DNA of 41,787 nucleotides, taken from the NCBI GenBank assembly GCA_027039485.1, contig JALWDZ010000011.1, positions 1 to 41,787 on the forward strand, read 5' to 3'. The notes beneath the pieces were generated by a model, which worked only from the letters and a program-made list of their open reading frames with translations, made no database searches and was not told the origin of the DNA. The stretch is from Candidatus Shapirobacteria bacterium (GTDB lineage: Bacteria; Patescibacteriota; Microgenomatia; UBA12405; UBA6130). Both the position numbers and the translations under genes were made by a program. Below are positions 5,008-16,107 of this stretch, in pieces; within the stretch, counting starts at the first letter, position 1, and the number at the start of each line of letters is the position of its first letter.

Positions 5008-5017
5008 CACTTGATTG

Positions 5018-6331
5018 ATGACTAATTGGCGCCAATGGCTTAAAAACCACTTTATCCATCTTCCCCGGGCAATTTTGGCAAACTGGCGTTATGGTTGGCC
5101 GAGCCGACGGCTTAATTTTATTGGTGTGACCGGCACCGATGGCAAAACGACAACTACCCTTTTAATTCACCACCTTCTTCGGGAAGCGGGTTTAGCCGCT
5201 GGCTATGTTTCGACGATTGCCGCCCAGGTGGGGAAGAAGCAAGAACCAACCGGTTTGCATGTCACCTCACCGCCGGCGGCTAAGCTGCAGAGGTGGCTAG
5301 CGGCAATGGCCCGCGAGCAAGCCGGCAAATGGGTTGTTTTGGAGGCTACTTCCCATGGTTTGGACCAGTATCGCCTTTGGGGAATCCATTTCCAAAAAGC
5401 TATTTTGACGAATCTAACCCACGAGCATTTAGATTACCACCAAACAATGGAAAATTATTTTCGGGCTAAAATGCGCCTTCTTTGCCATAGCGAACGGCTT
5501 TTTGTTTATGAAAATTTAGGGAAACAATTTTTGCCAGCGATTAAGAAAACCTGTCGCCAGCAAAAGATTTTTCTCTATGGACTAAGTCCTAAAAGTGACT
5601 GGCAGGCAAGAAACCTGCATCTTGGCTTGGGGCAAACAAGCTTTGATCTTTATTTTCGCCGGCAAAAAAAAGGCCATTTTCAAAGCCAGCTTACGGGCGA
5701 ATTTAATTTGCACAATCAAATAGCCGCCTTGGCTGCTGTTTTGGACCAACATTTGGTTTCTTTATCTCAAGCCCAAGCAGCTTTGGCAACTTTTCCCCCG
5801 CCGCGGGGACGAATGGAAATTGTCGCCCGCGAGCCATTTTTGGTGATGATTGATTTCGCCCACACTCCCAACGCCTTAGAACAATTATTGCGTTCCTTGC
5901 GCCAGGTGCATTCCGGCCGGATTTTAGTGGTTTTTGGCGCTGCCGGGGAACGGGACCGAGAAAAGCGCCCTTTAATGGGGGAGATAGCTGCCCGTTGGGC
6001 TGATGTTGCCGTTTTAACCTCTGAAGATCCGCGCACCGAAGATCCCCAAGCCATTATTGAGGCTATTGCCCGGGGGTGCCGGCAGGGAAAAATGCGCCGG
6101 GCCAAGGAAAAAGACGCCCGGCTAGTGCAACAGGGAAAGAAGAAAAAAGTCTTTTTCCAAATTGAAAATCGCCAAGAAGCTATTAATTTTGCTTTGCGCC
6201 GCTTAGCCCGGCCAGGCGATTTGGTTGTTCTTTGCGGCAAGGGCCATGAGCAATCCATTTGCTATGGCCATCAAGAATATCCTTGGTCGGAGCATCAGGC
6301 AGTTAAGGTTGCTTTAGGGCAACAGCCATGA
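5018..6331 (+). CDS. murE: MurE-type UDP-MurNAc-peptide ligase, N-terminally shortened
   Basis: MurE adds the third amino acid to UDP-MurNAc-L-Ala-D-Glu using ATP. The product (437 aa) has the ATP-binding GVTGTDGKTTTTLL (K43), the LEATSHGLDQYR motif, the central DFAHTPNALEQLL segment and a C-terminal SEDPRTEDP motif aligned with the DNPR that binds meso-diaminopimelate in Gram-negative MurE; the retained Arg favours a DAP-type substrate. The P-loop starts about 70 residues earlier than in E. coli MurE, so most of the N-terminal uridine-binding domain is absent. It overlaps the following gene by 4 nt. Confidence 0.85.
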   Translation: MTNWRQWLKNHFIHLPRAILANWRYGWPSRRLNFIGVTGTDGKTTTTLLIHHLLREAGLAAGYVSTIAAQVGKKQEPTGLHVTSPPAAKLQRWLAAMAREQAGKWVVLEATSHGLDQYRLWGIHFQKAILTNLTHEHLDYHQTMENYFRAKMRLLCHSERLFVYENLGKQFLPAIKKTCRQQKIFLYGLSPKSDWQARNLHLGLGQTSFDLYFRRQKKGHFQSQLTGEFNLHNQIAALAAVLDQHLVSLSQAQAALATFPPPRGRMEIVAREPFLVMIDFAHTPNALEQLLRSLRQVHSGRILVVFGAAGERDREKRPLMGEIAARWADVAVLTSEDPRTEDPQAIIEAIARGCRQGKMRRAKEKDARLVQQGKKKKVFFQIENRQEAINFALRRLARPGDLVVLCGKGHEQSICYGHQEYPWSEHQAVKVALGQQP

Positions 6332-7080
6332 AGCTGATCTTTTCGCCTTTCAAAGCCAACTACCAGCGCTACCAATTTCCTTATCAAGTTTTGCTTTGGC
6401 GAGAATCGGGCGATAGTTTGGCAAAAATTTATGCTCTTGGCTTCCTGCCTTTTCGCCAGCGCCAAGATTTATTTTATTTAAGCCGAAGTTGCCGGAGCAA
6501 TCTCCGGCACAGCCAATTTTCTTCGGAAAACCGGCGCGTCTTAGCTCGAACCAAGGGCTTTCGCTTTTCTCTAAAAAAAGTTAGTCCTCCCTTATTGCCA
6601 GAAAAACAGAAACTCTTGCGCGATTGGGCCCGGGGAGCAGGTTGGGATATTAAAACGCCGACTCTAAAGAAGCTTTGGCAGGGAAAATTTTTTAATTACC
6701 AGTTAATCATTAGCTGGCAAAAGCAGCCGGTTAGCTATTCTCTCTTGTTGGTCCAACCGCCGATTGCCCATTGGGCCTATCTTTTTCTGGATTCTGCCTA
6801 CCGACAGCAAAATTTGGCTATGGCCGGAGGGTTATTTCTAATTCGCTGGGCCCAGCAGCAGCATTTAGCCTATCTCTATTTGGGGACTTGTTATGGGCGG
6901 TTGAATTATAAGCGCAATTTTCCCGGCCTGGAATTTTTTAATGGCCTTTATTGGTCGGATGACCAAAAAGAATTACGCCAGCTATTAAAAGAAGATTGGC
7001 CGGGCCATCTTTGGCAGAATACCGCCTGGCGCCAGAAGCTGGAAAGCTGGTTAACTAAAAGCAGCAAAAGACAAGAATGA
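6328..7080 (+). CDS. Bpt/ATE1-like aminoacyl-tRNA transferase homologue
   Basis: The 250-aa product resembles the Bpt/ATE1 (leucyl/arginyl-tRNA-protein transferase) family. Residues 54-72 (SCRSNLRHSQFSSENRRVL) match the N-terminal SCxPxR...F..S.sqrRvl signature. Residues 182-200 (YLYLGTCYGRLNYKRNFPG) match the C-terminal YLYLGY....MNYK.rF block of the GNAT-like domain. Of the N-terminal cysteine cluster only C55 remains. Its place between murE and an Mpl-type ligase, with 4-nt overlaps on both sides, suggests a job in peptidoglycan peptide modification, comparable in logic to the Fem transferases, which also use aminoacyl-tRNA and a GNAT-like fold. That role is inference; protein N-end labelling is the family alternative. 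Confidence 0.6.
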   Translation: MKLIFSPFKANYQRYQFPYQVLLWRESGDSLAKIYALGFLPFRQRQDLFYLSRSCRSNLRHSQFSSENRRVLARTKGFRFSLKKVSPPLLPEKQKLLRDWARGAGWDIKTPTLKKLWQGKFFNYQLIISWQKQPVSYSLLLVQPPIAHWAYLFLDSAYRQQNLAMAGGLFLIRWAQQQHLAYLYLGTCYGRLNYKRNFPGLEFFNGLYWSDDQKELRQLLKEDWPGHLWQNTAWRQKLESWLTKSSKRQE

Positions 7081-8474
7081 AGAGAAAGAAAGTTTATATC
7101 ATCGGGATTGTGGGAACTATTGGCACCGGTTTGGCACGAGCTTTTAAGAAAGCTGGCTGGGAGGTTAGCGGTTCAGACCAGGAAAATGTTTTTCCACCGC
7201 TAACGACTGCTTTGCAACGGGCAAAAATCCCTTTCTATCGGGGTTATAGCGCCGACCATGTTCCCCAGAATGCTGATTTAGTCTTGGTAGGGGGTAGTGC
7301 TTTAGTAATTGATCGCCGCAACCCGGAATATTTACAGGCGCAGAAATATCATTTGCCTATTCTTAGTCATGCTGAGGCAATAGCCCGTTTCGTGGTTAAG
7401 AAGAATTCTTTGGTAGTGGCCGGTAGTTACGGCAAGACAACGATTACCTCTCTGCTGGTAGCTATTTTAAAGGCGGCCCATTATCAGCCGGCATATATGA
7501 TTGGTGGCTGGCCGCTTAACCGTTGGTCTTCGCTAGCCTTTTCGGAAAGCAACTGGTCGGTGGTAGAGGGCGATGAATATTGGGTTAATCCGGAAAAGCC
7601 GCAGGCAAAATTTTTTCTTTATCGGCCCCGTTATCTTCTGATTACTGCAGCCCATTGGGAGCATCCCGATGTTTATCCCCAACCAGCCCTTTATTACCAA
7701 GCCTTTCGCAAACTAGCAGATTCGGTTCCCAATGACGGTTTGGTCGTGGCTAATTATTTTGGCGAGCACCTAGATTTTCTCCGTTCTCGGCCCCGGGTAG
7801 TTTGGTATTCTGGCAAAAAAGGCAAGGGTAATTGCTTTTTGGCAGCCTGGCAGCCATCTTCGCGGGGGATGCAACTAAAAGTGAACTGTCAGAGTGCTAA
7901 GGTTAATCTTCAATCTCCCCTTCTAGGCAAACATAATGCCGAAAATATTGTCGCGGCGGCGACTATGGCTCATTATTTGGGCATTAGCTGGCCGGCGATT
8001 AAAAAAGCGATTAGTAGAGCTAAGGGGGTGAAAAGGCGACTAGAAAATCAAGGAACTGTTGGGGGAATTACAATTTTTGAGGATTTTTCCCAAACTCCAC
8101 CGCGAATCAAAGCGGCTTTGCAAGCCTTACGGGACCATTTTCCCCGGCAGCGGATTCTAGTAATTTTTTACCCCCACTATAGCGGCTGGCGGGATAGGTC
8201 TATTTTAAGGGAGATAAAGGGGATTTTTAGTTTAGCTGATAAAGTTTGGCTGACGCGAGTTCATTTTGACCGCCGGCCGGCAGCAGAAAGGGTAACCGGG
8301 TCATTAATTATCAAAGCTTTGGGGAGCCCAAATGTTGAGTATTGTCCCGATGACCAAATTCTCGAAAAGGAAGTTAAGCAAGAACTTCGGTCTGGCGATG
8401 TTTTAGTCTTTATGTCCTCGGGCGGCTTGCGAGGCTTAAAGCAAAAAGTTATTAGTTTTTTAAGGCATCGTTAA
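7077..8474 (+). CDS. mpl: Mpl-type Mur ligase (UDP-MurNAc:peptide ligase)
   Basis: This 465-aa Mur ligase looks more like Mpl than MurC. It has IIGIVGTIGTGLARAF, then NVFPPLTTAL (Mpl has NVYPPMSTLL), P-loop AGSYGKTTITSLL, VEGDEYW (Mpl EADEYD), PRYLLITAAHWEHPDVY and the C-terminal GDVLVFMSSGGLRGLKQKV. Mpl joins a ready-made murein tripeptide to UDP-MurNAc, a recycling reaction, whereas MurC adds L-Ala. Here the usual THGKT is SYGKT and the DDFAHHP motif is EDFSQTP, so substrate preference may have shifted. It overlaps neighbours by 4 and 1 nt. No other MurC is in the window, so it may also serve as MurC. Confidence 0.75.
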   Translation: MKRKKVYIIGIVGTIGTGLARAFKKAGWEVSGSDQENVFPPLTTALQRAKIPFYRGYSADHVPQNADLVLVGGSALVIDRRNPEYLQAQKYHLPILSHAEAIARFVVKKNSLVVAGSYGKTTITSLLVAILKAAHYQPAYMIGGWPLNRWSSLAFSESNWSVVEGDEYWVNPEKPQAKFFLYRPRYLLITAAHWEHPDVYPQPALYYQAFRKLADSVPNDGLVVANYFGEHLDFLRSRPRVVWYSGKKGKGNCFLAAWQPSSRGMQLKVNCQSAKVNLQSPLLGKHNAENIVAAATMAHYLGISWPAIKKAISRAKGVKRRLENQGTVGGITIFEDFSQTPPRIKAALQALRDHFPRQRILVIFYPHYSGWRDRSILREIKGIFSLADKVWLTRVHFDRRPAAERVTGSLIIKALGSPNVEYCPDDQILEKEVKQELRSGDVLVFMSSGGLRGLKQKVISFLRHR

Positions 8475-9793
8475 TGGCGCAGTTCGTTATTCATAGCCAA
8501 AAGCCATTACGTGGCGAAGTAGTTATCCGCGGGGCGAAAAATTCTGGTTTTAAATTGCTCATTGCTTCGCTTTTTGGCCGCCAAGAATCTCTTTTTAGTA
8601 ACCTGACTAAAGCCGGCGAAACAAAAATTACCCTCTCCCTTATTAAGTATTTGGGGGCTGATTTCCGTTGGGTTGGTGAACATAGCGTCTTGGTAAATCC
8701 CCAAAATCTACAACATAGCCAGTTGCCGTTAGGAGTAGGCCGGGAAACGCGGGCAAGCATTCTTTTTGTTCCCGTTTTGCTTTACCGTTTTGGTCGGGCC
8801 CGGGTACCCTGGCCTGGTGGCGATAAAATTGGCCGCCGGCCTTTGGATCGCCATTTGGCCGGTTTGCAAAAGATGGGCGTCCAGATTAAACAAGGCGAGC
8901 AATTTTTAGAATTTACCGCTCCTCACCGCTTGCAGGGAGTCCGTTATCGCTTTGCTAAAAACACCCATACCGGCACCGATACTCTTTTGATGGCTGCCCT
9001 CTGGGCAGAAGGGGAAACGGTTTTAGAAAATGCTGCTGCCGAACCGGAAGTTGACGACCTTATCAGTTTTCTTAATAAAATTGGTGGTCGGGTAAAACGA
9101 ATTGCCCCAAGGATGATTGTGATCCAAGGGCGACGCCAATTTCGCGGAGCCGAGCATGTGGTCATTCCTGATCGCAATGAAGCGGTCACTTTTGCCTGTG
9201 CTGCTTTAGGGACTCGGGGGGAAATAGATATTTTTAATATCAACCCCAACCATCTTTATGCGTTTATTGAACAGCTACGGATGATTGGAGCCGGACTAGA
9301 AATTGGCGTTAATGAAATGAAAGTAACCTGGCGGGAAAAGTTGCGGGCAAGCAAAATTGAAACAGCCCCTTACCCCGGCTTTATGACCGATTGGCAAGCT
9401 TTGTGGTCAGTTTTGATGACCCAGGCCTGGGGCACAAGCGAGGTGGTTGAACGCATTTTCCCTTACCGCTTCCAATATGTGCCCTATTTGCAGAAGATGG
9501 GCGCCAAGATAAAATTTTTTCAACCTCAGGTAAATGATCCGGCGAGTTATTATAATTTTAATCTTGAGGATGACCGCCCGGAATTTTTCCACGGCATTCA
9601 CATTAGTGGCCCTAGCCATTTACAAGGTATAACTATGAAGGTAAATGATATTCGGGCCGGGGCGACATTGACTTTGGCGGCATTGATGGCTAAAGGGAAA
9701 AGCGTTTTACAGCAGGCGGAAAAGATAGACCGCGGCTATGAGCACCTAGCTAAGCGCCTCCAGCAATTGGGGGGTGATATCATTAGAGTATGA
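8474..9793 (+). CDS. murA: UDP-GlcNAc 1-carboxyvinyltransferase MurA
   Basis: MurA transfers enolpyruvate from PEP to UDP-GlcNAc, the first committed step of peptidoglycan synthesis. The 439-aa product has the substrate-binding RGAKNSGFK (K22, N23), the active-site loop PWPGGDKIGRRPLD, and FMTDWQALWSVLMTQA near the C-terminal half. The loop residue that is Cys115 in E. coli is Asp117 here; Asp at this site is known from Mycobacterium and Chlamydia MurA and gives fosfomycin insensitivity. It shares one base with the mpl stop (TAATG) and overlaps murF by 4 nt. Confidence 0.92.
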   Translation: MAQFVIHSQKPLRGEVVIRGAKNSGFKLLIASLFGRQESLFSNLTKAGETKITLSLIKYLGADFRWVGEHSVLVNPQNLQHSQLPLGVGRETRASILFVPVLLYRFGRARVPWPGGDKIGRRPLDRHLAGLQKMGVQIKQGEQFLEFTAPHRLQGVRYRFAKNTHTGTDTLLMAALWAEGETVLENAAAEPEVDDLISFLNKIGGRVKRIAPRMIVIQGRRQFRGAEHVVIPDRNEAVTFACAALGTRGEIDIFNINPNHLYAFIEQLRMIGAGLEIGVNEMKVTWREKLRASKIETAPYPGFMTDWQALWSVLMTQAWGTSEVVERIFPYRFQYVPYLQKMGAKIKFFQPQVNDPASYYNFNLEDDRPEFFHGIHISGPSHLQGITMKVNDIRAGATLTLAALMAKGKSVLQQAEKIDRGYEHLAKRLQQLGGDIIRV

Positions 9794-11052
9794 TTGATAT
9801 CCGGCGGGATTACCGTTTTTATACCCACTTACCTTTTGGCAAGCGCTTTTACCACCTAGGGCGAAGATATTTGGCTAAATTATGGGCCAGGTTCCATCAT
9901 CCTCGAGGAGTGGTAATGATTACCGGCAGTTACGGCAAAACCTCGACTGCTTATGTTTTGGGGGAGACCTTAAAACGGGCCGGCGGCGCTTTGGTGACTG
10001 ATCGCAATCTGGATACAATTTTCAATTTACCGCAAACGCTTTTGCATTGGCGTTGGCCGCCCTGGCTAGTGCTAGAAACCGGCATCGATCATCCCCAAGA
10101 AATGGATTTCCATCTCCGTTTGGTTAAGCCAACCACAGTCATCTTTACCGGGGTGGTCCCTGTTCATGCTGATGAGCAATTGCTGGGATCCAAAATGGGG
10201 ATCTGGCAAGAAAAAACAAAATTAATTCGGGCCTTGCCGGCCAATGGCTTGCTTATTTATAATTTTGATGACCTTTTAGCTCGTCATGCGGCTCGACTTT
10301 TCTCGGGCCCAAAGAGAAGCTATTCCCTTAAGAAAGGAAAAGGAGATTACTGGCTGGTTAAAAGTAAAGTTACTCCTCAAGGCAGCCAGTTTTGGTTAGC
10401 GACTTCTTCGCGATTGCCAATAAGAATAAAAACGCCCCTTTTGGGAAAGCATTTTGCCCAATCGTTTTTAGCTGCTTTAGCTTTTTTAGATTTTTACCAT
10501 TTACCGCCGTCACTTTTGGTAGATACTGCTCGCCAGCTTAAGCCTTTGCCGGGGCGTTTGTCGTTGCAGCCCTTCCTTAATGGCAGCTGGCTCTTAGATG
10601 ACAGCCGGCGGTCTAACCCCGCATCAGCCAAAGCTGGCTTAACTCTGGTGGCTACTTTAAAACCACATTACCAGCGCCTTATTGTGGTTATGGGAGAGAT
10701 GGGAGAATTAGGCCGTTATGCCCGGCAAGAACACCGGCGGCTGGGACGCCAATTGGCCAAATTAAAACCGGATATCTTGATTGGTATTGGCCCCTTGATG
10801 CGCTTAGCCCTTAAAGAAGCAGAAGGAGTTACTGCTATTTGGGCTAATGACCCCGCCACGGCTGGAGAATTATTCTTGAAGGAATATTCTCCCCGGAAGG
10901 GCGATCTTTTTTACCTTAAGGCTTCCCTTTTGCGCCATTTAGAACGCTTCCGTTATGTGTTAGAGGGAAGGAAAGTCGCCTGTCGGCGGCCTGTTTGCCA
11001 TTATTATCACGATTGCTCGCAATGTGATAAACTGAATGAAGAAAGGGGGTGA
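9790..11052 (+). CDS. murF: MurF-type Mur ligase with cysteine-rich tail
   Basis: MurF joins D-Ala-D-Ala to the UDP-MurNAc-tripeptide. The 420-aa product has ITGSYGKTSTAYVLGETL (P-loop, residues about 45-62), LETGIDHPQEMD, HFAQSFLAALA and WLLDDSRRSNPASAKAGL, which matches the MurF motif DDSYNANPxSM. The N-terminal UDP-binding domain appears short. The last 30 residues hold four cysteines (C-x4-C-x5-C-x2-C, VACRRPVCHYYHDCSQC) with nearby histidines, which is not a usual MurF feature and could bind zinc. Only 6 nt separate its stop from the next start codon. Confidence 0.8.
   Translation: MIDIRRDYRFYTHLPFGKRFYHLGRRYLAKLWARFHHPRGVVMITGSYGKTSTAYVLGETLKRAGGALVTDRNLDTIFNLPQTLLHWRWPPWLVLETGIDHPQEMDFHLRLVKPTTVIFTGVVPVHADEQLLGSKMGIWQEKTKLIRALPANGLLIYNFDDLLARHAARLFSGPKRSYSLKKGKGDYWLVKSKVTPQGSQFWLATSSRLPIRIKTPLLGKHFAQSFLAALAFLDFYHLPPSLLVDTARQLKPLPGRLSLQPFLNGSWLLDDSRRSNPASAKAGLTLVATLKPHYQRLIVVMGEMGELGRYARQEHRRLGRQLAKLKPDILIGIGPLMRLALKEAEGVTAIWANDPATAGELFLKEYSPRKGDLFYLKASLLRHLERFRYVLEGRKVACRRPVCHYYHDCSQCDKLNEERG
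11039..11052 (+). promoter_or_regulatory. Long Shine-Dalgarno (AAGAAAGGGGGTGA)
   Basis: This purine run lies 6 nt before the ATG at 11059 and overlaps the end of murF. The same AGAAAGGGGGTGA string precedes the genes at 30541 and 28385 (minus). It differs from the textbook AGGAGGTGA by having G in place of the central A. Confidence 0.75.
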
Positions 11053-11058
11053 GACATT

Positions 11059-11316
11059 ATGCCACCACTTGATTTGAATGATGCTCTAGCAATGGGCGAC
11101 AAAGAAAAAAATTTGGCCCGGGCACGGCAATCGCTGATCGAAGAGTTGGATGCGATTAACCTTTATGAAGAACGGATTCAAGCTACCCAAGATGAAGAAT
11201 TGAAGAAAGTGCTAGCTCATAATCGGGATGAGGAAAAAGAACACGCCGCAATGCTTATTGAGTATTTGCGCCATCACGATCCTGTTTTCGAGCGGAAGTT
11301 TACAGAGCACGATTGA
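11059..11316 (+). CDS. Encapsulated-ferritin (EncFtn) family protein
   Basis: EncFtn proteins are short two-helix ferritin-like ferroxidases that form a ring of dimers and are normally packed in encapsulin shells. The 85-aa product has EELDAINLYEERI and LAHNRDEEKEHAAMLIEYLR, closely matching the family consensus. E29, E59 and H62 keep the exact spacing of the iron ligands E32, E62 and H65 of the Rhodospirillum rubrum protein, and Y36 matches Y39. The chain stops soon after helix 2 with no encapsulin-targeting tail, and no encapsulin gene is in the window. It may detoxify iron and peroxide as a free protein. A strong Shine-Dalgarno suggests high expression. Confidence 0.8.
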   Translation: MPPLDLNDALAMGDKEKNLARARQSLIEELDAINLYEERIQATQDEELKKVLAHNRDEEKEHAAMLIEYLRHHDPVFERKFTEHD

Positions 11317-11675: not shown

Positions 11676-12713
11676 ATGGAATTCATTTACTTTGGTTTGG
11701 TGTTGTTTTCCTTTTTTGCCAATTCATTGCTTTTCATTCCTTTTATTAACCTTCTTTATCGTTGGCATTTTGTCCGCCGCCGGCAAATTACCCGTGACTT
11801 CCAAAACAAGCGGGCGGTCATTTTTGACAAGCTCCATGCCCACAAAGCAGGGACGCCGGTGGGTGGTGGCCTTTTAATGGTAATTACCATCTTAAGCTTG
11901 CAGTTTGTTCTTTTGCCAGTTTTAAAAATCTACCGCCACCGGGGTTTTTATACTGCTTACCCTCTAGTAGATGAGGCAAACATTGTTTTTTTTACTATGA
12001 TTTCTTTTGGTGTTTTAGGTCTTTATGATGACCTGATGAAGTTTTTTGGATTTGAAAAGACAGGGTTCTTTGGCTTGCGAATGAGGCATAAGTTTTTGCT
12101 CCAATGGGCTCTGGCTTTTATAGTTGCCGCCATGCTCTATTTTAATTTGGGTATTAATTTTATTTATTTGCCTTTTTATCGGGCGGTTTATCTAGGTTAC
12201 GGTTATATTTTTTTGGCGGCCACTTTAATTGTTTGGCTGGCTAACGCTTTTAATATTACCGATGGTTTGGATGGTCTTTCGAACGGTTTGCTTTTAATTT
12301 TTCTCTTGGCCTTTTGGGTAATTGCTTTCCAGTCGTTTGATACTTTTTTGGGAGTTTTTATTGCCCTTTGGGTGGGGGCAGTTCTAGCTTTCCTTTATTT
12401 TAATGTTGCTCCCGCCCGACTTACTTTAGGTGATATCGGGGCATTAGCCTTTGGGGCCACTATTGCTGTTATTGGTCTTTTGACGGGTAAAATTGTTGCC
12501 GTCTTGATTGTGGGCATGGTTTTTAATTTGGAGGGGCTTTCCAGTTTGTTGCAAATTCTTAGCAAGGCGTGGCGGCACCGCAAAATTTTTCCGGCCGCAC
12601 CGCTTCATCTTTGGCTGCAGTATCGCGGCTGGCCAGAAACAAAAATTGTAATGCGCGCCTGGATTGTGGGAATAGTTTTTGCCTTTCTAGGCCTTTGGTT
12701 ATCTTTTATTTAG
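11676..12713 (+). CDS. mraY: Phospho-N-acetylmuramoyl-pentapeptide transferase MraY
   Basis: MraY moves phospho-MurNAc-pentapeptide onto undecaprenyl phosphate in the membrane to make lipid I. The 345-aa product has about ten membrane helices and the family motifs DKLHAHKAGTPVGGGLLM, LGLYDDLMKFFG (Asp pair), NAFNITDGLDGL and LTLGDIGALAFG. The C-terminal MAPIHHHFE motif reads AAPLHLWLQ, so only the first of the three histidines is kept, while the flanking GWPETKIVMRAWI is normal. The ATG at 11676 is set by the -10 just upstream. The gene after it on the same strand starts 197 nt later, with a small minus-strand gene between. Confidence 0.9.
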   Translation: MEFIYFGLVLFSFFANSLLFIPFINLLYRWHFVRRRQITRDFQNKRAVIFDKLHAHKAGTPVGGGLLMVITILSLQFVLLPVLKIYRHRGFYTAYPLVDEANIVFFTMISFGVLGLYDDLMKFFGFEKTGFFGLRMRHKFLLQWALAFIVAAMLYFNLGINFIYLPFYRAVYLGYGYIFLAATLIVWLANAFNITDGLDGLSNGLLLIFLLAFWVIAFQSFDTFLGVFIALWVGAVLAFLYFNVAPARLTLGDIGALAFGATIAVIGLLTGKIVAVLIVGMVFNLEGLSSLLQILSKAWRHRKIFPAAPLHLWLQYRGWPETKIVMRAWIVGIVFAFLGLWLSFI

Positions 12714-12910: not shown

Positions 12911-13744
12911 ATGAAAGTTTTGAAAAGCAAGAAAACGCCCCTCATTTTGAAACACGGCTTGTACTTAAAGCGTGAAGACCAGCAGCCTTCAGGTTCGGTT
13001 AAAGATAGGGGAATGATTGCCCAGTTAACCCATTTGCCACCAGGCAGGCGAGAAGTAGTTATCAGTTCTTCGGGTAATGCGGGAATTAGTTTGGCCTATT
13101 GGGGGCGGCGCCTGGGATTGACGGCCCATATTTTTGTTAGCCCTAAACTTCCTTCCGAAAAAAAAGAACGTCTGCAAAAATTAGGGGCTAAGATTCATAT
13201 CTCCCCACGGGCTTTAAGCGAAAGCATCCGCTTTGCCCGCCGCTATCATTTTCCCCACCTGCGTCAATCAATCAGCGTTTGGGCAAGAAATGGTTTTCGT
13301 TCGCTGGGAGAAGAGCTAAGGGATGAAAGTGCCCCGGAGGCCATTTTCTTTCCGGTTAGCAGCGGCACGACTATGTTGGGAGTAAGCGAGGCCTGGGCTG
13401 ACAGCAAAAAGAAGCCCGTCTTTGTTTTGGTTCAGACAGCTGGCCATTGTCCTCTGGCGCGCCATTTAGTGCCCTGTCCGCCAAGAGAAAAGAACACTTT
13501 GGCAACGGCCTTGGTAGCTAAATATATTCCCTGCCAGAAGGAAATTTTAACTTTAGTTAAAAGTTACGGCCAGGCAGTGGTGGTGCGAAATGCAGAAATA
13601 GGAGCTGCTTGGCAATGGTTAAGGCAGGAAGGGATTGTCACTTCTTTTGAAGGAGCGGCAGCGGTGGCTGCTGCTTGGCAAATAAAGGCTACTCGGCGCT
13701 GGCAACGTCCAGTTTGTTTATTGACAGGAAAGTACTATGGTTGA
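12911..13744 (+). CDS. PLP-dependent enzyme, fold type II (threonine synthase-like)
   Basis: The 277-aa product is a small member of the tryptophan synthase beta / threonine synthase / cysteine synthase superfamily. It shows the PLP lysine in PSGSVKDRG (K31), the phosphate-binding loop SSSGNAGIS (residues 52-60), SSGTTMLGV near residue 150 and the C-terminal SFEGAAAVAAAW and LLTGKYYG typical of threonine synthase. These enzymes do beta- or gamma-replacement or elimination on hydroxy-amino acids. It is shorter than threonine synthase (usually over 350 aa). It overlaps the ATP-grasp gene by 8 nt, so the two likely act in one pathway; their place between mraY and ftsW suggests cell-wall amino acid supply. 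The true substrate is unknown. Confidence 0.75.
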   Translation: MKVLKSKKTPLILKHGLYLKREDQQPSGSVKDRGMIAQLTHLPPGRREVVISSSGNAGISLAYWGRRLGLTAHIFVSPKLPSEKKERLQKLGAKIHISPRALSESIRFARRYHFPHLRQSISVWARNGFRSLGEELRDESAPEAIFFPVSSGTTMLGVSEAWADSKKKPVFVLVQTAGHCPLARHLVPCPPREKNTLATALVAKYIPCQKEILTLVKSYGQAVVVRNAEIGAAWQWLRQEGIVTSFEGAAAVAAAWQIKATRRWQRPVCLLTGKYYG

Positions 13745-15044
13745 TTTTACGGCGCCAGTTTTTTATTTAGGAATGGATTTTTATCAGGGCCTGCCTGGTT
13801 TTTGGCTTTTTCCTAATTATTATTTAATTGCTTATCGGGCTCACCCGGTAATTAAAGAATTGCCGTTTGCTAATCGTATTTTTGCTCTTGCCGATAAATT
13901 GAAAGTGCCGATTCCGCGTGATAGCGGCCATTTGCTCGCCCACCCCTTAGTCCAAGATTTTATTCTTAAGCAAGCCCGGGGAAGCAATATTTTTCTATCT
14001 TTCTTTAAACCCAATAGGAAAGTAGAAATTATTGCCCAAAGGAAAAGCTGGCATTTAATTGGCAATTCCCATAGTTTAGCTAAGAAACTGGAGAATAAAA
14101 TCCAACTTTGGCGCTCTCTCCGCCGTTATGCTCAAGTGCCATTTTTGCCTGGCCAGGTGATAAGGCTGGGCAATGGGCAATATAATTCACTAGTGAAGCG
14201 ATTTGGTGAATGTTTTGTCCTACAGTTAGGCTATGGTTGGGCAGGTCGTTCAACTTTTCAGGTATGTTCCCAACAAAAATTTGAACGATTACAACAAAAA
14301 TTTCCGAAGCAATGGGCAAAAGTATCATCATTCCTATCGGGCTGGACGCTTACTAATAACAATGTAGTAACCAAAGAAGGAGAGATTTTGATTAGCCCTC
14401 TAGCGAGGCAAATCACCGGCCAGAAAGAATTTTGCCCTGGCTTAACAATGGCAACTTGCGGGCGAATCTGGCCCGATAAAATTGATAAAAAGATAGCCCA
14501 ACGAGCTCGAGAAATTACCCAATTTATCGGCCGCTGGCTTTTCCGGCAGCGTTTTGCTGGTTTTTTTGGGATTGATTTTTTATTAGCCCCTGATGGGCAA
14601 TTATTTTTCCAGGAACTGAACCCGCGCCTGACGGCTTCAGCAGCTTTTATGGCCTTTGAAGAATTGCGACAAAAGAAGCTCCCGCTCTTGCTTTATCATT
14701 ATGCCAGTTTTTTACCCTGGCAGCCGCGCCAAACTTGGCAATCGGTTGTTTTAGAAGGAGGAGAGGTAACCGTTCGTGTTGCTCGCACTAAACATGTTCA
14801 GAAGGTTTTGCCCAGCGGCGCTTATAGTTTTGACCATCATTATTTAGGGGCTAATTTCTTTCCGTCTTCACAAAGAATTACCTTTGTCGGGGCTTATTCG
14901 GGAGAAGAAATCCGCCCCGGAGGAGAGCTTTTTCGCTTTTCTAGCCTAGGTCGGGTAGGGCGTTGGCAAGGTCGCCATTTTCAGCTTGCTTTAGCCCAGC
15001 AGCATTTTTATCATTGGATAAGGCAATTTTATGAAAAGACTTAA
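13737..15044 (+). CDS. ATP-grasp ligase-like protein
   Basis: The 435-aa product has an ATP-grasp domain: a flexible-loop segment LQLGYGWAGRSTF (residues 163-174), FFGIDFLLAPDG (residues 276-287) and the metal-binding FFQELNPRLTAS (E293, N295, R297). ATP-grasp enzymes activate a carboxylate as acyl-phosphate and join it to an amine. A C-terminal part of about 100 residues after the core is unassigned. It is translationally coupled to the PLP enzyme upstream (8-nt overlap) and to ftsW downstream (14-nt overlap). In this slot many bacteria have murD. A role in ligating an amino acid to a cell-wall precursor is plausible but not shown. Confidence 0.7.
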   Translation: MVDFTAPVFYLGMDFYQGLPGFWLFPNYYLIAYRAHPVIKELPFANRIFALADKLKVPIPRDSGHLLAHPLVQDFILKQARGSNIFLSFFKPNRKVEIIAQRKSWHLIGNSHSLAKKLENKIQLWRSLRRYAQVPFLPGQVIRLGNGQYNSLVKRFGECFVLQLGYGWAGRSTFQVCSQQKFERLQQKFPKQWAKVSSFLSGWTLTNNNVVTKEGEILISPLARQITGQKEFCPGLTMATCGRIWPDKIDKKIAQRAREITQFIGRWLFRQRFAGFFGIDFLLAPDGQLFFQELNPRLTASAAFMAFEELRQKKLPLLLYHYASFLPWQPRQTWQSVVLEGGEVTVRVARTKHVQKVLPSGAYSFDHHYLGANFFPSSQRITFVGAYSGEEIRPGGELFRFSSLGRVGRWQGRHFQLALAQQHFYHWIRQFYEKT

Positions 15045-16107
15045 AAACAAAAAATTAGCCCGTTGGTTTCTGGTTTTTTTAATTTTTTTCGCCGTCTTAG
15101 GTCTTTTTTTTATTGGCGATATTTCTCTTGCCGAGGCGCGGGCTAATTTTCACGATTCTCTTTATTTCGTTAAGCGTCAGGCATTTTGGGTGCTCTTGGG
15201 GATGGCGAGCTGGCCGTTGCTTTGGCGTTTACCAAAGACGTTCTGGCAAAAAGTCAGTTTACCGCTTTATCTTGTCAATCTTTTTGCTTTGGGGTTGGTT
15301 TTGTTGCCCGGAATTGGCCGGACTGTTTGGGGGGCTCACCGCTGGCTCGTTTTAGGTCCTTTGGCTTTCCAACCGGCAGAGCTAATGAAATTTACTTTTT
15401 TACTCTCTTTGAGCGTTCTTCTGGCTCATCGCCAAGTCATTTCGTTCAAATTCTTTCTTCTTCTCCTTTTGCCGCCGCTTATTCTTATCGGGCTTGAGCC
15501 TGATTTGGGGACTATTTTAGTGCTGGTAATTTTGGGGGGTACTATTTATTTTGTTAGCGGTGTCAATTGGCGTTTCTTTTTGGCCCTTTCTTTCTTGGGA
15601 TTAGTTATCGGGAGTGTTTTTATTTTTAGTTCTCATTATCGCCGCCAGCGTTTGGAAGGCTTTTTTAATCCTTTTTCTGACCCCCTAAATAAAACATACC
15701 ATGCTTATCAATTGGTAATTACTTTGCACCGAGGAGGTGTCTGGGGGCAAGGTTTGGGGCAATCGCGCCAAAAATACCGTTATTTGCCGCAGGTTACTAC
15801 CGATTCTATTTTGGCGGTTATTGGCGAGGAAATTGGTTTTTTGGGGTTAGCTGTTTTTCTCCTGATTTTTTTGGCGGGCCTCTATTTGATCTTCTTTCTG
15901 GCCAGCCAAACTAGCGATCCTTTGGCCTTTTATTATGGTGTCGGGTTAGGCAGTTGGTTAGCTGGCCAGGCTTTCCTTAATGCCGGAGCGGTGGCCATCC
16001 TCTCGCCCTTTACCGGGGTGCCTTTTCCGCTTGTTTCTTACGGTGGTTCTTCGGTGATAGCAATCTTTTTAGCTGGAGGATTATTTTTTAAATTTTTAGA
16101 CCTATGA
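15031..16107 (+). CDS. ftsW: SEDS peptidoglycan polymerase FtsW
   Basis: FtsW polymerises lipid II at the septum together with FtsI. The 358-aa product has about ten membrane helices and the SEDS signatures GAHRWLVLGPLAFQPAELMKF, EPDLGTILVL, TTDSILAVIGEEIGFLG and the C-terminal PFPLVSYGGSSVI. The IGEEIGFLG segment and the position just before murG support FtsW over RodA. It starts 14 nt inside the ATP-grasp gene and shares an ATGA with murG. Confidence 0.9.
   Translation: MKRLKNKKLARWFLVFLIFFAVLGLFFIGDISLAEARANFHDSLYFVKRQAFWVLLGMASWPLLWRLPKTFWQKVSLPLYLVNLFALGLVLLPGIGRTVWGAHRWLVLGPLAFQPAELMKFTFLLSLSVLLAHRQVISFKFFLLLLLPPLILIGLEPDLGTILVLVILGGTIYFVSGVNWRFFLALSFLGLVIGSVFIFSSHYRRQRLEGFFNPFSDPLNKTYHAYQLVITLHRGGVWGQGLGQSRQKYRYLPQVTTDSILAVIGEEIGFLGLAVFLLIFLAGLYLIFFLASQTSDPLAFYYGVGLGSWLAGQAFLNAGAVAILSPFTGVPFPLVSYGGSSVIAIFLAGGLFFKFLDL

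Follow-up and report, generated by a model that had tools for sequence, protein, structure and literature searches.

A PLP enzyme and an ATP-grasp ligase in the murD slot point to variant peptidoglycan precursor synthesis in Candidatus Shapirobacteria and relatives

The window analysed here, a 41,787-nucleotide stretch of contig JALWDZ010000011.1 (C11) from a Candidatus Shapirobacteria bacterium (GCA_027039485.1), carries a division and cell wall (dcw) gene cluster in which two coupled genes, encoding a pyridoxal phosphate (PLP) enzyme and an ATP-grasp ligase, fill the murD slot between mraY and ftsW. The source genome belongs to the candidate phyla radiation (CPR), measures 695 kb and is 97% complete. 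Its cluster runs rsmH, ftsI, murE, a gene for a GCN5-related N-acetyltransferase (GNAT)-fold protein, murC, murA, a murF-like gene, mraY, the PLP gene and the ATP-grasp gene, and continues with ftsW, murG, a short open reading frame (ORF) in the place of ftsQ, ftsA and ftsZ, after which the window holds a second ftsW/rodA gene, parB and, further on, murB. The PLP gene (12911–13744, 277 aa) and the ATP-grasp gene (13737–15044, 435 aa) overlap by 8 nt, and the latter overlaps ftsW (15031–16107, PF01098) by 14 nt; mraY (11676–12713, PF00953) forms the upstream flank of the slot. These genes, like the murE, GNAT, murC and murF-like genes described below, are on the forward strand. A sequence-only reading of the window had described the two genes as coupled by these overlaps and as encoding a threonine-synthase-like PLP enzyme and an ATP-grasp ligase; we recovered both ORFs, and the PF00291 match and fold searches agreed with the assignments. 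What it overlooked is that the window murC (7077–8474) is non-canonical and that the extra GNAT gene (6328–7080) is part of the set.

The PLP enzyme belongs to fold-type II and matched the PALP family PF00291 with 157.9 bits against a cut-off of 35 (E 5e-46); its AlphaFold model has a predicted local distance difference test (pLDDT) score of 95.6. The PLP lysine K31 and the motifs SSGN and SSGTT are invariant or nearly so, and an LTG motif is conserved. Its closest folds are threonine synthases (template modelling (TM) score 0.82), with serine dehydratases and serine/aspartate racemases also among the matches. Assignment as a threonine synthase was rejected, the enzyme scoring 104 bits against the 358 cut-off of the best NCBIfam equivalog model and lying below every such cut-off, and its likeness to serine and aspartate racemases is at the superfamily level only.

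The ATP-grasp protein shows a complete three-domain ATP-grasp fold, with a pLDDT of 93.7 in its AlphaFold model and matches to PDB structures at E 1e-17, and the catalytic residues D280, E293, N295 and R297 are invariant across 30 relatives. The nearest folds are PurK/biotin-carboxylase-like (TM about 0.6, ~12% identity). By sequence the protein stayed under the Pfam gathering scores, a phmmer search against the PDB returned no match, and a profile search found biotin carboxylase and carbamoyl-phosphate synthetase alone (E 1e-4); it is treated here as a family of its own. Two further identities were rejected: the protein has the ATP-grasp fold and not the Mur ligase fold of MurD (TIGR01087, cut-off 211.95), and only the protein at C20:4138-5178, on another contig of the genome, scores as Ddl (254.8 bits; TIGR01205, cut-off 245.65), while the window protein does not. 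Remote relatives of the family adjoin RimK-like and ATPgrasp_ST genes, a neighbourhood that is suggestive of peptide ligation and of nothing more specific. Some of these relatives are ~780 aa long (L085:7794-10127, L086:8104-10449 and L087:8487-10862), and the neighbour in L085 joins ATPgrasp_ST and a retropepsin-like protease domain in one protein.

The same sequence-only reading had noted that the window lacks murD and had proposed searching the genome for murD, murI and ddl and profiling the pair against murD. Across the whole source genome, a murD hidden Markov model (HMM) search gave cross-matches only, namely to MurC (the best, at 93 bits), MurE, the MurF-like protein and a further MurF-like ligase on C20. 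A murD located elsewhere was rejected on these grounds, the C20 ligase being MurF-like. Neither murI nor pgeF was found in this 97%-complete genome; ddl (on C20, adjoining the second MurF-like ligase), murA, murB, murE and the murF-like genes are retained. We then profiled 374 genomes of the class, mostly incomplete metagenome assemblies, calling murD and murI by scores above curated cut-offs (~212 bits for murD). A strong match to the ATP-grasp profile was present in 57 of them (56 full, one a fragment at a contig end); joint occurrence of the PLP and ATP-grasp genes was likewise seen in 57 relatives. None of the 57 class genomes with the ATP-grasp match had murD above its cut-off, compared with 254 of the 317 others, and none had murI, compared with 104 of 317 (Fisher p = 7e-34 and 2e-9, respectively, shared ancestry being ignored). 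Since the absence of murD is consistent over dozens of incomplete assemblies, it is unlikely to be due to chance.

Locus structure in sister genomes gives independent support for this exclusion. The sisters share the order mraY-murD-ftsW-murG, many with murI immediately upstream of murD; murD is the sole gene separating mraY from ftsW in G053 and G056, and in G049 and G060 the interval holds one gene more. The PLP/ATP-grasp pair occupies the same interval in lineages f1, f2, f3, f19 and f25. Family f21 is divided, with the set present in genus g114, whose MurC belongs to the pair clade, and murD and a canonical MurC retained in the other genera. The pair genes adjoin in nearly all pair-bearing genomes found, so their arrangement is not a matter of chance. 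In some genomes of the class (G006, G007, G047 and G054) the pair is missing and no clear murD is seen either; such genomes may do without peptidoglycan synthesis or have another solution.

The MurC-family ligase of the window scored 252.5 bits with the MurC model (TIGR01082, cut-off 335.1) and 200.5 bits with the Mpl model (TIGR01081, cut-off 388.7), and its L-Ala pocket residues are changed, so it was rejected as a canonical MurC. In pair-bearing genomes with the set in the dcw cluster the MurC proteins score 201-267 bits, compared with 336-412 in murD-bearing relatives and Gottesmanbacteria. The altered MurCs form one clade outside the group of E. coli MurC and canonical CPR MurCs (97/93 support), E. 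coli Mpl being a long branch and the root unsure. An unbiased column comparison picked out E. coli positions Y352, H354, G464 and A465 as separating the two groups; the window protein carries Y352F, H354Q and SS for GA, and the altered MurCs have lost the F(T/S)RT motif and gained a one-residue insertion. Position 354 is Gln in every readable sequence from pair-bearing genomes that have the gene in the dcw cluster (37/37) and in none of the others (0/27), and position 465 is Ser in 36/36 readable altered sequences. Tyr346, His348 and Arg380 are among the residues listed for Haemophilus influenzae MurC as binding L-Ala on its way in (PMC3060825); the alignment offset places them at E. coli Y352, H354 and R386. 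Mpl, a ligase that attaches peptides to UDP-MurNAc, has at the altered positions Phe, a loop of this altered length and Ser-Asn-Gly. Aligned with PaMpl, the window protein shares Phe374, the loop length, Ser483 and Gly485 and differs at a pocket His and at Asn484. The match of the altered pocket to Mpl-specific features is partial. Loss of a carboxylate-binding Arg would be expected if the acceptor is the N-terminus of a peptide and not a free amino acid. No canonical murC was found in the source genome, as judged from murD-model cross-matches with no dedicated MurC-model search, and the window MurC appears to be the sole MurC-type ligase there.

The GNAT-fold gene between murE and murC was found in 40 of the 374 genomes, all from pair-bearing lineages with the set in the dcw cluster, and never in a murD-bearing genome of that search (two weak matches, E 1e-5 and 6e-4, were ignored); four of the 40 lack a strong ATP-grasp match and are apparently cut by contig ends. 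All ten family members examined match PF04377 (ATE_C, the arginyl-tRNA-protein transferase C-terminal domain; best E 8e-9). Acidic N-termini are the targets of ATE and Bpt enzymes, and the GNAT protein may be an aminoacyl-tRNA-dependent transferase. Its position is taken in Gottesmanbacteria and in G053 by pgeF, whose product is an amidase editing mis-made UDP-MurNAc-L-Ser (PMC8844914). PgeF was detected in 0/46 tested genomes of the window type, in 13/14 Gottesmanbacteria and in 9/20 murD-bearing genomes.

MurE, the next enzyme of the pathway, shows no such change. The window copy (5015–6331) is an N-terminally short, diaminopimelate (DAP)-type MurE (TIGR01085, 394 bits), and an alignment of pair-bearing and other genomes revealed no consistent difference in the acceptor site; a changed site as the mark of a new second residue was thus rejected. 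The motif around E. coli T157 tends towards 'TSP' in place of 'TTP', without being fixed. Because the site is unchanged, the pathway intermediate is probably still similar to L-Ala-D-Glu.

The exception is Gottesmanbacteria (f27), which carry the pair outside the dcw cluster, in an operon of MurD-like, PLP, ATP-grasp and prfB genes followed by ftsE, ftsX and other genes (L074, L075, L076, L082 and L084). Their MurD-like protein scores 118-193 bits, under the 212 cut-off; several MurD motifs are kept, and many otherwise fixed positions differ, including the motif after SPA(C/A)A. MurC is canonical and PgeF present in these genomes, and the GNAT gene is missing. In the ATP-grasp tree their copies cluster with those of f19, f21 and f25 and are not basal. 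With an altered MurD beside the pair, presence of the pair alone was ruled out as a sign of MurD loss. The pair thus occurs in two patterns, with a re-tuned MurC and no MurD or with a canonical MurC and a re-tuned MurD, and because it is common to both, this suggests that the pair produces a position-2 building block of the stem, to be incorporated by the re-tuned Mur ligase of each lineage.

The MurF-like ligase (9790–11052) has a Cys-rich C-terminal tail and scored 166 bits with TIGR01143, not reaching the cut-off of 289. Together with the protein at G000:C20:2897-4078 it gives this small genome two distinct MurF-like ligases. An 85-aa ORF (11059-11316) lies 3' of the murF-like gene, and G001 has an ORF of equal length in the same place (L045:8820-9077). 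In several pair-bearing lineages a gene of ~230 aa separates mraY from the PLP gene (L080:8230-8934, L053:8850-9527 and L063:11816-12508); the copy tested, that of L080, has no Pfam match, and the f25 counterpart (L079:7412-8224) bears a weak likeness to CHAP/NlpC amidases.

From gene content, locus structure and protein comparison, we judge it highly probable that the pair stands in for MurI and MurD. The reactions and their order we infer as follows. The PLP enzyme, acting as a racemase in MurI's stead, would supply the second-position amino acid, most simply by converting L-Glu to D-Glu. The ATP-grasp enzyme, to go by its fold, would activate a carboxylate with ATP and join it to an amine to give the second-position block. 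MurD would not be what adds this block to UDP-MurNAc-L-Ala in the window lineage; there the peptide would be made first, either by the GNAT protein moving L-Ala from tRNA onto the amine of the block, as its ATE-like similarity suggests, or, more simply, by the ATP-grasp enzyme itself joining L-Ala and D-Glu. The second variant fits the window lineage and not Gottesmanbacteria. The Mpl-like MurC, judging from its pocket, would then load the peptide onto UDP-MurNAc, with MurE, MurF and MraY following as usual, while in Gottesmanbacteria the altered MurD would add the same block, with a canonical MurC and no GNAT protein. With either way of making the peptide allowed, this explanation as worded seems to us evenly poised between right and wrong. 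The proposal that the first residues of the stem are built as a free peptide by PLP racemase, ATP-grasp ligase and tRNA-dependent GNAT protein and loaded in one step by an Mpl-like MurC, so that MurI, MurD, PgeF and a canonical MurC are all dispensed with, is more tentative, and we put it at somewhat less than an even chance. Several points weigh against the explanation as a whole. We know of no glutamate racemase among fold-type II PLP enzymes. The window MurC scores better with MurC than with Mpl models and its best PDB match is a MurC, and the ATE_C likeness of the window GNAT protein is weak (E 0.001, 19.9 bits against a gathering cut-off of 25). Finally, Gottesmanbacteria have two ligases alongside the PLP enzyme, and therefore the ATP-grasp enzyme is not a pure MurD substitute there.

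The sequence-only reading had raised the replacement of a Mur ligase step by an ATP-grasp enzyme. That idea fits the exclusion with murD and murI, the slot being that of murD in sister genomes and the lack of murD elsewhere in the genome; as a one-for-one swap it is incomplete, given the re-tuned MurC, the GNAT gene in the set and the altered MurD of Gottesmanbacteria. A direct swap of the pair for MurI and MurD, in which the MurC and GNAT changes serve something else, such as another first residue or a cross-bridge, would suit a two-gene cassette in the murI-murD place, the exclusion with murD and murI and an unchanged MurE site, and ATP-grasp ligases acting on UDP-MurNAc peptides do exist (the D-Asp ligase Aslfm). 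It leaves the fixed MurC pocket change, the GNAT linkage and the loss of PgeF unexplained, however, and Gottesmanbacteria retain an altered MurD with the pair, so we consider it unlikely.

The pair might instead introduce a side branch or other modification, such as an amino acid attached to DAP or to the alpha-carboxyl of D-Glu, much as an aspartate racemase and Aslfm add a side residue in lactic acid bacteria, with the MurD step carried out by another Mur ligase or a bifunctional MurC. The source genome has four Mur-type ligases. Several pair-bearing f2 genomes, however, show cross-matches to MurE, MurC and one MurF-like ligase only, although a divergent ligase might escape the murD model, and a branch gives no reason for the strict murD/murI exclusion or for the use of the murD slot; we regard it as improbable. 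Scavenging of host muropeptides, in which the Mpl-like MurC would reload imported L-Ala-D-Glu peptides and the pair would be a peptide-processing module, accords with the inferred life of CPR bacteria on hosts and with the role of Mpl as a recycling enzyme (PMC3060825). Retention of murA, murB, ddl, the murF-like genes and a MurE with the DAP motif, and the location of the pair in the murD slot of a biosynthetic cluster, make this very improbable.

Canonical MurI-MurD resembles the pair as a supplier-then-ligase two-gene cassette in the mraY-ftsW interval that is required before MurE, yet MurI is cofactor-free and MurD has the Mur ligase fold, and neither is homologous to the fold-type II PLP enzyme or the ATP-grasp protein found here. 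Aspartate racemase and Aslfm likewise combine a racemase with an ATP-grasp ligase in peptidoglycan synthesis, but the residue they add is a cross-bridge on Lys, they work alongside a retained MurD, and the racemase is cofactor-free. MurD2-MurL of Xanthomonas offers an alternative route to the D-Glu step without D-Glu synthesis; there the Mur ligase MurD2 takes L-Glu and MurL is an ATP-dependent epimerase, unlike the ATP-grasp and PLP enzymes of a system with no MurD (PMC8788868). Mpl resembles the window MurC as a MurC-like ligase in which Phe replaces Tyr346, the loop is longer by one residue and a Ser-x-Gly motif is present, but it recycles beside a canonical MurC (PMC3060825), whereas the window MurC is apparently the only MurC-type ligase and lies in the dcw cluster. 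The ATP-grasp protein OG0001014 of pseudomurein clusters, compared here by its description, is found with Mur ligases and a MraY-like protein in wall-peptide synthesis; it is archaeal, and that description reports no fold-type II PLP partner (PMC11915815).

Our searches of the open-licence literature turned up neither a description of this gene set nor an account of murD being replaced in CPR. For Candidatus Shapirobacteria and their relatives, which are tiny and uncultured, the findings point to a hitherto undescribed route by which the cell-wall peptide is begun, and to a variant of peptidoglycan precursor synthesis. If this is true, the first two steps would be replaceable wholesale by unrelated enzymes while the steps from MurE to MurG stay, and calls of pathway completeness in CPR would change, as a missing murD may be misread as loss of peptidoglycan.
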